From an uncultured Alcanivoracaceae bacterium (GTDB lineage: Bacteria; Pseudomonadota; Gammaproteobacteria; Xanthomonadales; Marinicellaceae): DNA of 34,646 bases. The position numbers were made by a program, and so were the translations under genes. The number at the start of each line of letters is the position of its first letter. The first letter of the stretch is position 1. The DNA lies in assembly GCA_947311585.1 (NCBI GenBank), contig CAMZLQ010000122.1:1-34646 (forward strand). The letters are read 5' to 3'. The notes under the pieces were generated by a model that was not told the origin of the DNA, ran no database searches, and saw only the letters and a list, made by a program, of their open reading frames with translations. This document shows positions 20,719-30,348 of the stretch, in pieces.

Positions 20719-22404
20719 ATGAGCTACCAAGCCCTTGCACGCCAATTTAGACCACAAAACTTTACGGAACTTGTCGGGCAAGAACACGTGTCTCAAGCAC
20801 TGATAAATGGTTTAGAAAACGACAGAATCCACCATGCCTTTTTATTTACTGGAACACGAGGTGTGGGCAAAACCACCGTGGCACGAATCCTTGCCAAAGC
20901 ATTAAACTGTGAAAAAGGCGTAACAGGCTCTCCTTGTGGAGTTTGTTCGGCTTGCACGCAAATATCAGAAGGACGTTTTGTGGATTTGGTTGAAGTCGAT
21001 GCCGCTTCACGAACAGGAGTGGATGACACCCGAGAGTTGCTCGAAAATGTTCAATACGCACCAACCAGCGGACGTTACAAAATCTACCTCATTGATGAAG
21101 TCCACATGTTTTCTAAAAGTAGTTTTAATGCCTTGTTAAAAACGCTCGAAGAACCACCTCCTCATGTTAAATTTTTATTGGCAACAACAGAACCCAAGAA
21201 ATTACCCGTAACGGTACTCTCTCGTTGTTTACAGTTTAACCTTAAACGATTAAGCCTAACGCAAATCAATAATCACTTAATAAAGCTATTGGAGTTGCAA
21301 AATATTGCCTACGATGCCAGTGCCATAGAACTTATTGCACGTGCAGCTGAAGGCTCTATGCGCGATGGATTGAGTTTGCTAGATCAATCCATAGCCTTTG
21401 GTGCTGGAAATGTCAAAGAAGAAGGCGTTAAGCTCATGCTTGGCACCATTGATAAAAACAGTGTTGTGGACTTGTTGACTTATATTGCTGCAAAGGATGC
21501 TGAAAATTTATCATCGCAACTGCAACAAATATTTGAAATGTCGCCAGATTATGCCTTGTTCTTAAATGATATGGCATTGTTGTTACATGAAATCTCATTG
21601 CTGCAAATTTTAAACAAATATGTCGAAAGTTCACGGTTCGATAAACAAACCCTTGTTAAATTTGCTCAAGGCATTTCTCATGAACAAGTTCAACTGTATT
21701 ACCAAATCGTGATTAAAGGACAAGAAGAAATAAATTTAGCACCCGATAGCAAAACAGGCTTTGAAATGACAATATTGCGATTGTTCGCTTTTAAAATTGG
21801 ACAATTTCCAACAGCAGAAAAAAAAACACCTGAATCGACTCCAGGTCAACTAAATCAGCAGCAAAACACAACTCAATCCACTATTAATCAACCCAATCAA
21901 ACTAATCATACTAATTCCGCACAAAACTCAAGGGTGGAACCGATATATCAAGAACAAACTCCGACAGTGCAAGAAACACCACCAGTTCAACAACAGTTCA
22001 ATCTAAATGAAATAACCCAAACAAATTGGGCAACCATTTTTAATGCCTTGCCGATACGCGGAACAGCAAGAGAATTGGCAAGAAATTCACTGGTTATGAG
22101 TAATGATAAGGGTAAGCTGGTGTTATCGGTTGATAAGCAAACCCATGCTTTTATGACGGATAGAGCGTGTAAAAATTTAAAGAAAGCCTTGCAGGATTGT
22201 GTTCGAGAAACCATTGCAGTAGAAATTTGCGAAGGCGGCGACCACTCCCAAACAATCGCTCGAACAGAACAACTAATTCAAGATACAAATGTACAAGAAA
22301 CTAAACAAAAAGTTTCGCAAAACCCATTTGTGCAAAACATGCAAGAAAACTTTGATGCACAAGTGATTCAAATCAAAGACGGTCAAAACTTTTTAGAGGT
22401 ATAG
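20719..22404 (+). CDS. dnaX: DNA polymerase III subunits gamma and tau
   Basis: 561 residues (tau form). The clamp-loader AAA+ domain has Walker A GTRGVGKTT (45-53), zinc-binding Cys64, Cys73, Cys76 and Cys79, Walker B YLIDEVHMF (about 123-131) and the sensor/arginine motif LSRC (167-170). Domain III ends near residue 360. A Gln/Asn/Thr/Pro-rich linker (about 366-430) then leads to the tau-specific C-terminal region that in other bacteria contacts DnaB and the polymerase alpha subunit. An A9 run at the linker start probably generates the shorter gamma protein (separate entry). It heads the dnaX-ybaB-recR-hinT operon, with 4 bases to ybaB. No strong Shine-Dalgarno precedes the ATG. Confidence 0.97.
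   Translation: MSYQALARQFRPQNFTELVGQEHVSQALINGLENDRIHHAFLFTGTRGVGKTTVARILAKALNCEKGVTGSPCGVCSACTQISEGRFVDLVEVDAASRTGVDDTRELLENVQYAPTSGRYKIYLIDEVHMFSKSSFNALLKTLEEPPPHVKFLLATTEPKKLPVTVLSRCLQFNLKRLSLTQINNHLIKLLELQNIAYDASAIELIARAAEGSMRDGLSLLDQSIAFGAGNVKEEGVKLMLGTIDKNSVVDLLTYIAAKDAENLSSQLQQIFEMSPDYALFLNDMALLLHEISLLQILNKYVESSRFDKQTLVKFAQGISHEQVQLYYQIVIKGQEEINLAPDSKTGFEMTILRLFAFKIGQFPTAEKKTPESTPGQLNQQQNTTQSTINQPNQTNHTNSAQNSRVEPIYQEQTPTVQETPPVQQQFNLNEITQTNWATIFNALPIRGTARELARNSLVMSNDKGKLVLSVDKQTHAFMTDRACKNLKKALQDCVRETIAVEICEGGDHSQTIARTEQLIQDTNVQETKQKVSQNPFVQNMQENFDAQVIQIKDGQNFLEV
21818..21833 (+). other. Probable programmed slippage site in dnaX producing gamma
   Basis: Nine consecutive A (21818-21826) fall at codons 367-370, just after the clamp-loader core. 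In the -1 frame the reading continues AAC ACC and meets TGA at 21831-21833, giving a product of about 371 residues. A small hairpin ACCTG/CAGGT begins at 21828, one base after the A-run and its following C. E. coli dnaX uses A-AAA-AAG frameshifting and Thermus uses transcript slippage on nine A; the position and immediate stop here match that design. Confidence 0.65.
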
Positions 22405-22408
22405 AAAA

Positions 22409-22732
22409 ATGAAAGGACAATTAGGAAACATGATGCAACAAGCTCAAAAAATGCAAGAGCAAATGCAAAAGCAACAAGCCGAACTCGCCAATAAAATAAT
22501 CGAAGGTCAAGCGGGTGCAGGAATAGTCAAGGTTTTGATGACAGGCAAAGGCATGCTTAAAAAACTCGATATCGACTACGATATGCTTGATGGTGATAGG
22601 GAAATGATGGAAGACTTGATTATTGCTGCATTTAATGACGCCCAAAATAAAATAGTTGCCGAAACTCAAGGATCAATGGCTGACATGATGGGTGGAATGC
22701 AATTACCAGAAGGATTCAAACTGCCTTTTTAA
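22409..22732 (+). CDS. ybaB: YbaB/EbfC nucleoid-associated protein
   Basis: 107 residues: an N-terminal amphipathic helix (GNMMQQAQKMQEQMQKQQAELA), the central sheet (GQAGAGIVKVLMTGKGMLKKLDID) and a second helix (MMEDLIIAAFNDAQNKI), ending with a Met/Gly-rich tail (MADMMGGMQLPEG). This is the complete YbaB/EbfC pattern. The dimer binds DNA with little sequence preference and is thought to affect chromosome structure or replication repair. The ribosome site GAGG (22396-22399) lies inside the end of dnaX. One base separates its stop from the recR start, as in many Proteobacteria. Confidence 0.95.
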   Translation: MKGQLGNMMQQAQKMQEQMQKQQAELANKIIEGQAGAGIVKVLMTGKGMLKKLDIDYDMLDGDREMMEDLIIAAFNDAQNKIVAETQGSMADMMGGMQLPEGFKLPF

Positions 22733-22733
22733 G

Positions 22734-23324
22734 ATGTCATTACTTGCACAACTCATGCATTCATTTCAAATTCTGCCTGGCGTTGGACCAAAATCGGCAC
22801 AAAGAATTTGTTTTAACCTATTGCAAAAAAATAAAGATGAAGCCATTAAATTGGCAGAAATCTTAAAACAAGCGTGCGAAAAAATTGGTGAATGCCAACG
22901 CTGCAGAACATTGACAGAGCACAAATTATGCCGAATTTGCCTTAGCGATAAGCGTAATGCCGAACAATTATGCATCGTCGAAACACCTGCTGATTTAATG
23001 CAAATAGAACAATCCACCGACTTTTCAGGCACTTATTTTGTCCTGCATGGCAACTTAAGTCCATTAGATGGTTTAGGTCCAAGTGAATTGGGTTTTCCAA
23101 AGATGATAGATATATTTACAAACGAACCCATCAAAGAAGTCATCATTGCCACAAACTCAACATTAGAAGGGCAAACCACAGCCCAATACATCGCACAACT
23201 GTGCTCTAAAGTTGATATAAAAGCCACAACCTTAGCCCGCGGAGTTCCATTAGGCGGCGAGTTGGAATACGTCGATGCTGGCACAATCGCCCATGCTTTT
23301 GGTAGCCGAGAGGAAATACAATGA
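22734..23324 (+). CDS. recR: Recombination mediator RecR
   Basis: 196 residues from ATG 22734 (an upstream in-frame start lies inside ybaB and is rejected). The N-terminal helix-hairpin-helix carries LPGVGPKSAQRICF, the Cys4 zinc finger is C54, C57, C66 and C69, the Toprim domain begins LCIVETPADLMQIE and continues YFVLHGNLSPLDGLGPSEL, and the C-terminal motif is ARGVPLGGELEYVDAGTI. With RecO it helps load RecA on gapped, SSB-coated DNA. Its stop overlaps the hinT start by 4 bases (ATGA), so the two are translationally coupled. Confidence 0.97.
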   Translation: MSLLAQLMHSFQILPGVGPKSAQRICFNLLQKNKDEAIKLAEILKQACEKIGECQRCRTLTEHKLCRICLSDKRNAEQLCIVETPADLMQIEQSTDFSGTYFVLHGNLSPLDGLGPSELGFPKMIDIFTNEPIKEVIIATNSTLEGQTTAQYIAQLCSKVDIKATTLARGVPLGGELEYVDAGTIAHAFGSREEIQ

Positions 23325-29547: not shown

Positions 29548-30348
29548 ATGAAATACAGTTTTAAAATAATGGGGGTCATTAACGTGACCCCTGATTCGTT
29601 TTCAGATGGAGGAAAATTTCTTCGTACCGACAAAGCAGTGATCCAAGCTGTGCAGCTTATTAAACAAGGAGCCAATATTATTGATATAGGGGGGGAATCG
29701 ACACGTCCAGGAGCAGAGGTTGTTTCGGTTGATGAAGAAATTAAACGTGTGGTTCCTGTTATTGAAGCACTTCGTAAAGAAAATTCGTCTATAACCATTT
29801 CAATTGATAGCAGCAAGCCAGAAGTCATGTCTGCAGCAATTAAAGCTGGTGCTAACTTTATAAACGACGTCAATGCTTTGCAGGAAAATGGAGCTTTAAG
29901 TGTTGCGGCACTAGCCAACTTACCTGTATGTTTAATGCATAAGCAAGGCCAACCAAAAACTATGCAAAACAAACCAGAATACCGTGATGTTTTGACCGAA
30001 GTCATGGATTTCTTTCAGCAAAAAGTGGATAATTGCTTGCTTGCGGGAATTAAGGCAAAAAACATCATCCTTGATCCAGGTATTGGATTTGGAAAAACCT
30101 TAGAACATAATTTAACCTTGTTGCGAAATATTAAAAAAATAAAATCACTAGGTTATCCAGTCTTGATAGGCGTTTCACGAAAGAGCATGATTGGAGAGAT
30201 TCTTAATGCAGAAGTGGAGGACAGATTGTATGGGTCATTGGCAATAGCCCAGTTTGCTTACACCCAAGGAGCAGAAATTTTCAGAGTGCATGACGTGAAA
30301 GCAACCAATGATGTACTTAAAGTAACACAGGAATTATTGATACCGTAA
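29548..30348 (+). CDS. folP: Dihydropteroate synthase
   Basis: 266 residues from the ATG at 29548; a TTG directly before it would add one residue. All DHPS motifs are present: MGVINVTPDSFSDGG, ANIIDIGGESTRPGAE, SIDSSKPEVMSAAIKAG, LMHKQGQP, ILDPGIGFGKT, VLIGVSRKSMIG and FRVHDV. It joins 6-hydroxymethyl-7,8-dihydropterin pyrophosphate with p-aminobenzoate in folate synthesis and is the sulfonamide target. It follows ftsH by 12 bases. A repeat region separates it from glmM, so coupling with glmM may be weaker than in E. coli. Confidence 0.97.
   Translation: MKYSFKIMGVINVTPDSFSDGGKFLRTDKAVIQAVQLIKQGANIIDIGGESTRPGAEVVSVDEEIKRVVPVIEALRKENSSITISIDSSKPEVMSAAIKAGANFINDVNALQENGALSVAALANLPVCLMHKQGQPKTMQNKPEYRDVLTEVMDFFQQKVDNCLLAGIKAKNIILDPGIGFGKTLEHNLTLLRNIKKIKSLGYPVLIGVSRKSMIGEILNAEVEDRLYGSLAIAQFAYTQGAEIFRVHDVKATNDVLKVTQELLIP

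Follow-up and report, generated by a model that had tools for sequence, protein, structure and literature searches.

The window, by which we mean the whole stretch of 34,646 nucleotides analysed here, carries at 20719-22404 on the plus strand a dnaX gene whose full-length zero-frame product, a protein of 561 amino acids and 62.7 kDa, is the tau subunit of DNA polymerase III. Membership in the DnaX family is indicated both by the dnaX_nterm equivalog score (TIGR02397) and by the presence of tau domain V. Directly after dnaX, at 22409-23324, lie open reading frames which, from a look at their sequences, we take to be YbaB/EbfC-like and then RecR-like; dnaX followed by YbaB/EbfC-like and RecR-like genes is the usual bacterial gene order. 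The features of the gene that bear on its expression are the following.

20719..22404, plus strand: dnaX, full length (tau); NCBIfam NF005942 697 bits (cut-off 613), TIGR02397 443.1 bits (cut-off 250), and Pfam domains
20719..21789, plus strand: clamp-loader core, domains I-III, amino acids 1-357 (PF13177, PF22608, PF12169)
21818..21826, plus strand: putative A9 slippage run, read GAA AAA AAA ACA, codons 367-370; runs of nine or more stand at the same place in relatives
21828..21846, plus strand: weak 5-bp hairpin ACCTG/CAGGT, probably incidental (z -1.34; one pair broken in a relative; no structure excess over 42 sites)
21831..21833, plus strand: TGA stop in the -1 frame, which would be entered by one extra A or by a ribosomal -1 shift; 371-amino acid product
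21851..21853, plus strand: TAA stop in the +1 frame, which would be entered by one A fewer or two more; 377 amino acids when one A is lost
21973..22365, plus strand: tau domain V, amino acids 419-549 (PF12170, E 7.1e-14, 52.6 bits, cut-off 28.8), missing from the short product

The Pfam matches carry the ATPase, the lid and domain III (PF12169) as far as amino acid 357, and the run of nine adenines starts ten codons further on, at amino acid 367 of 561. The first-pass annotation had placed this run at the junction between the clamp-loader core and the tau linker, a placement borne out by the end of domain III, by the position of domain V, and by the crystallised E. coli gamma construct (1jr3, 373 residues), which matches amino acids 1-371. 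Reading the frames also confirmed the proposal that a -1 shift gives Asn-Thr-stop: the -1 frame continues as AAC ACC TGA, two codons and then the stop, for a product of 371 amino acids and 41.3 kDa. The early +1 stop that had been expected as well was found as TAA, after eight sense codons. The predicted C-terminal ends are AEKKNT for the 371-amino acid form and AEKKHLNRLQVN for the 377-amino acid form, and both short forms would stop near the end of 1jr3. E. coli gamma itself also retains some of domain IV, which follows domain III. What would be looked for in a Thermus-type site, a sense-strand run of at least nine A's after the clamp-loader core and near stops in both non-zero frames, is present in the window. 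As to the E. coli type, there is an in-frame heptamer A_AAA_AAA (21819-21825) with the TGA close by in the -1 frame, and neither an upstream Shine-Dalgarno-like stimulator nor a conserved stable stem-loop at the proper spacing (2 nt here) was found.

No other A run of the window reaches nine, and matches to A8 are rarer there than expected (5, against 25.7 in shuffled sequence); genome-wide, A9 matches number 73 over both strands of 2.24 Mb. The window also holds a G7, at 29689, which encodes the DIGGESTRP motif of a protein that is presumably dihydropteroate synthase-like, and this run we judged to be ordinary.

The proposal of a programmed site had been made to depend on conservation of the run in close relatives, and such conservation was for the most part observed. 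Of the 11 genomes in the genus, 8 contain at least nine consecutive A's behind domain III, and this holds for proteins as little as 62% identical; the run is either an A9 at an offset of 29 nt past domain III or an A10 at an offset of 33 nt and in another codon phase, and the codons beside the run vary among genus members while the run stays put. The three remaining genomes (G002, G005 and G010; loci L012, L013 and L014) lack such a run. Past domain III they contain no stretch of eight or more A's and no persuasive heptamer with a -1 stop nearby, and they would either make tau only or make gamma by another route. Of the 30 genes fetched from the family, 13 have a run of nine or more no further than about 45 nt from domain III and 17 lack one. 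Its absence from these members of the genus and the family counts against a programmed site, and gamma would there be either dispensable or made otherwise. The closest named records are metagenome-assembled genomes (MAGs) labelled Lysobacterales, and Marinicella is more distant; a cultured member of the latter, M. litoralis KMM 3900 (L046), also has the A9.

Three sets of dnaX genes were compared more widely: 90 distinct near relatives (111 loci before identical coding sequences were merged), 147 genes of the class (from 147 of 177 matching genomes examined, as 30 + 117 loci) and 69 genes of the phylum from outside this class (69 of 90 non-gamma genomes); in the order sample 144 of 150 matched. 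Some genes sit in both the near and the class sets (e.g., L070/L186 and L075/L178); these duplicates were removed by context clustering in the collapsed stop test described below and kept in the tree. Among the near relatives, the tail beyond the core has 11 runs of A7, 4 of A8, 23 of A9 and 3 of A10, so that counts rise again at nine, and in the core of the same 90 coding sequences all A runs are shorter than eight. In the class set the tail counts level off rather than drop (A7 17, A8 14, A9 15, A10 4, A11 1), again with no run of eight or more in the core, and in the non-gamma set they are A7 10, A8 5, A9 6 and A10 3, with one A9 in the core. A tail run of nine or more is present in 20 of the 147 class genes, against a mean of 7.7 and a maximum of 13 in 300 within-gene synonymous codon shuffles, which yield as many as they do because the linkers often hold several lysines. 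Leaving the window out of the class sample, the frequency is 19 of 146 there and 8 of 69 outside the class, or about one dnaX in eight. The runs are also clustered, in that 29 of 44 independent contexts with nine or more A's, but only 20 of 161 with six to eight, are found no more than 65 nt from domain III; all three codon phases are used (9/24/11), and the flanks of the recurring runs in dnaX of Gammaproteobacteria and of other proteobacteria are unrelated. In a quick FastTree of 236 core proteins, 44 rows have a run of nine or more, and their distribution takes 20 changes, of which well-supported branches require at least 9; this tree does not separate gain from loss, and the run seems to have been gained or lost many times in related bacteria. 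One dnaX gene of 71% GC (L206) has its A9 at 113 nt past domain III, followed by CACCTGA, the same seven bases as after the run of the window, with a different position and different flanks.

Transcript slippage would lead translation beyond the run into both of the alternative frames and a ribosomal -1 shift into one only; a test for stops in both frames, controlled by runs of six to eight A's, separates the two mechanisms. Such stops were scored within nine codons of the run, leaving aside three split genes (L179, L231 and L342) and runs too near a contig end. Stops in both frames follow 36 of 40 runs of nine or more, against a fraction of 0.34 at random tail positions, and none of 500 permutations was as low. 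After shorter runs they are at or near the null fractions of 0.27-0.30 (A8 8/18, A7 9/27, A6 28/95), and the stop distances of A6, A7 and A8 runs do not differ from null. When contexts at least 60% alike were counted once, both stops were present in 36 of 41 contexts with nine or more A's versus 50 of 159 with six to eight (p 4e-11), and each frame taken singly was about equally enriched at the longer runs (-1, 39/41; +1, 38/41). At distances of up to 65 nt from domain III the signature is observed (26/28 against 4/19 for runs of six to eight), and at more than 200 nt past it the signature is absent (1/4). As the nine-codon limit was set after the first two sets had been seen, only the 69 non-gamma genes, fetched later, test it afresh, and in these it again marks the longer runs (6/8 against 10/38, p 0.015); in the class set by itself, runs of nine or more are not separable from A8 alone (p 0.074). 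It could be objected that A-rich sequence breeds TAA and TGA in shifted frames, but the shorter A runs, which serve as controls, do not carry the signature.

The three split genes show an inverted arrangement, in which the zero frame closes within three codons of the run (A9 in L179, A11 in L231, A9 in L342) and the open stretch in the -1 frame amounts to 198, 208 and 167 codons, respectively. L179 and L231 belong to the Gammaproteobacteria and L342 to another class. The -1 frame of L179 encodes tau domain V (PF12170, 5.9e-16), and those of L231 and L342 have no Pfam match to this domain, leaving L179 as the sole firm inverted gene; in L179 tau appears to depend on slippage. The inverted arrangement may also be an error of a single assembly. 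In a GeneTack study of 2013 (PMC3711429), two-ORF dnaX genes are described with an A run after the core and recoding between frames, which is the same arrangement as in L179, L231 and L342. Tau there needs the slip, in contrast to the window, where tau is the zero-frame product.

The run, both stops and the domain boundary observed in the window, together with what is observed in relatives, namely that such runs recur, that the effect sets in at nine and that stops follow in both frames, point to the A9 as a programmed transcriptional slippage site of the Thermus type from which this organism would make tau and a short gamma-like protein, and we consider this likely. RNA polymerase would realign on the A9, adding A's to the dnaX mRNA or leaving some out. 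Transcripts with nine (or 9+3n) A's would be translated into tau; on those with other counts, translation would end at 21831 in the -1 frame or at 21851 in the +1 frame and yield gamma-like proteins of 371 or 377 amino acids. The gamma-like product would keep the clamp-loader core (domains I-III) and lose the tau linker and the alpha-binding domain V. Slippage in this organism, the efficiency it may have and the assembly of the short protein into the clamp loader are what we infer from this pattern. The first-pass annotation had suggested production of gamma by either the E. coli or the Thermus type. A putative gamma-producing slip site is well supported by the comparisons, and the Thermus type is favored because the effect starts at nine A's and the stops lie close in both other frames.

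The E. coli type, a programmed -1 ribosomal frameshift, would have tandem tRNA-Lys slip on A_AAA_AAA and terminate at the TGA two codons on; the heptamer is in frame, as it would be in any phase of A9. By pattern search, a tRNA-Lys(UUU) gene and no CUU gene are present in the near-complete genus members G001, G006 and G008, as is stated for E. coli in PMC5009743, and ribosomal slippage is thus possible in principle; the organism's own genome (85% complete) gave no match to the tRNA-Lys(UUU) pattern, and its sole CUU-pattern match is no tRNA. However, a ribosomal -1 shift requires neither nine A's nor a +1 stop; seven A's would be enough, yet the signal begins at nine, and +1 and -1 stops are equally enriched. 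The stem beside the run that the first-pass annotation had pointed out is real as a pairing, ACCTG (21828-21832) with CAGGT (21842-21846) across a 9-nt loop at -4.9 kcal/mol, but 20 of 200 shuffles fold as well, a relative that is 98% identical (G007, locus L008) has lost one of the five pairs, and the stem starts 2 nt after the heptamer. The spacing of the E. coli dnaX stem-loop is about 5-6 nt. There is no trend across the 42 sites with nine or more A's, where mean downstream structure shows no excess (z -0.21 versus -0.13 at control positions), and we rejected the hairpin as a stimulator. No Shine-Dalgarno-like motif precedes the run in the window, and one is found at 5 of the 42 sites. Short perfect hairpins do follow the run immediately in L095, L009 and L010, the neatest candidate being that of L095 (Legionellales MAG SP289), a perfect 8-bp hairpin that abuts the A9 and has the -1 stop TGA as its 3-nt loop. 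Weighing these points, we regard an E. coli-type shift as the mechanism at this site as unlikely; ribosomal frameshifting might also act jointly with transcript slippage.

It could also be that nothing is programmed: in a linker that is rich in A and bears lysines, the A9 would be an accident that is tolerated, and any slippage on the run would be noise. The linkers are of low complexity, the synonymous shuffles alone produce runs of nine or more in 7.7 of 147 genes, and the run is missing in many relatives; against this, the 20 genes observed exceed every one of the 300 shuffles, the window has fewer runs of such length than expected, an A9 is present even in the 71% GC gene, and positional clustering and two-frame stops appear at nine or more only, making an accident quite improbable. 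Homopolymers are hypermutable, and the closing of the zero frame right after the run in the three split genes would fit a replication-slippage or phase-variation tract or an error of assembly. Such an origin is hardly credible for the A9, as its length is kept at 9-10 across separate assemblies, the frame continues in nearly all genes with nine or more A's, and neither cause predicts two-frame stops.

The number of bacteria making gamma, and the route by which they do so, is poorly known. Two-frame stops follow runs of nine and not of six to eight, and a slippage dnaX may for this reason be recognizable by sequence alone; the test also yields a list of genes that can be checked in existing RNA-seq. 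Extending this to the Pseudomonadota as a whole, we lean toward the view that A9 transcriptional slippage may be a widespread, repeatedly gained and lost route to a minimal clamp-loader subunit of domains I-III only, recognizable from sequence and sometimes flipping to a slippage-dependent tau. In the literature searched we found no study that surveys slippage in single-ORF dnaX genes of Gammaproteobacteria, which is weak evidence of absence given that few subscription journals were covered.

Frameshifting in E. coli dnaX is established (PMC5009743). The window shares with the E. coli gene, in which a -1 ribosomal frameshift occurs at A_AAA_AAG, the same kind of product pair, predicted here, and a -1 stop just past the slip. 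It differs in having nine A's rather than A6G and in its close +1 stop; a Shine-Dalgarno-like stimulator is absent upstream, and no stem-loop at a suitable spacing is convincing. For T. thermophilus dnaX, transcriptional slippage on an A9 and stops close by in both other frames are described (Larsen et al. 2000, through PMC1088944 and PMC5009743). The T. thermophilus gene and that of the window both have a single tau ORF, a sense-strand A9 and close stops in both frames, and in both the shorter product retains, or in the window would retain, the clamp-loader core; slippage has been demonstrated in Thermus and is predicted from sequence in the window, whose host is a gammaproteobacterium, unlike T. 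thermophilus. The run in T. thermophilus is placed seven-eighths of the way through the coding sequence (PMC1088944), whereas that of the window stands at amino acid 367 of 561, and this earlier position would make the short form smaller than in T. thermophilus. Both mechanisms are already known, slippage from T. thermophilus and frameshifting from E. coli; what we find informative in the present case is the signature that emerged from the comparison, along with a predicted cut immediately behind domain III.
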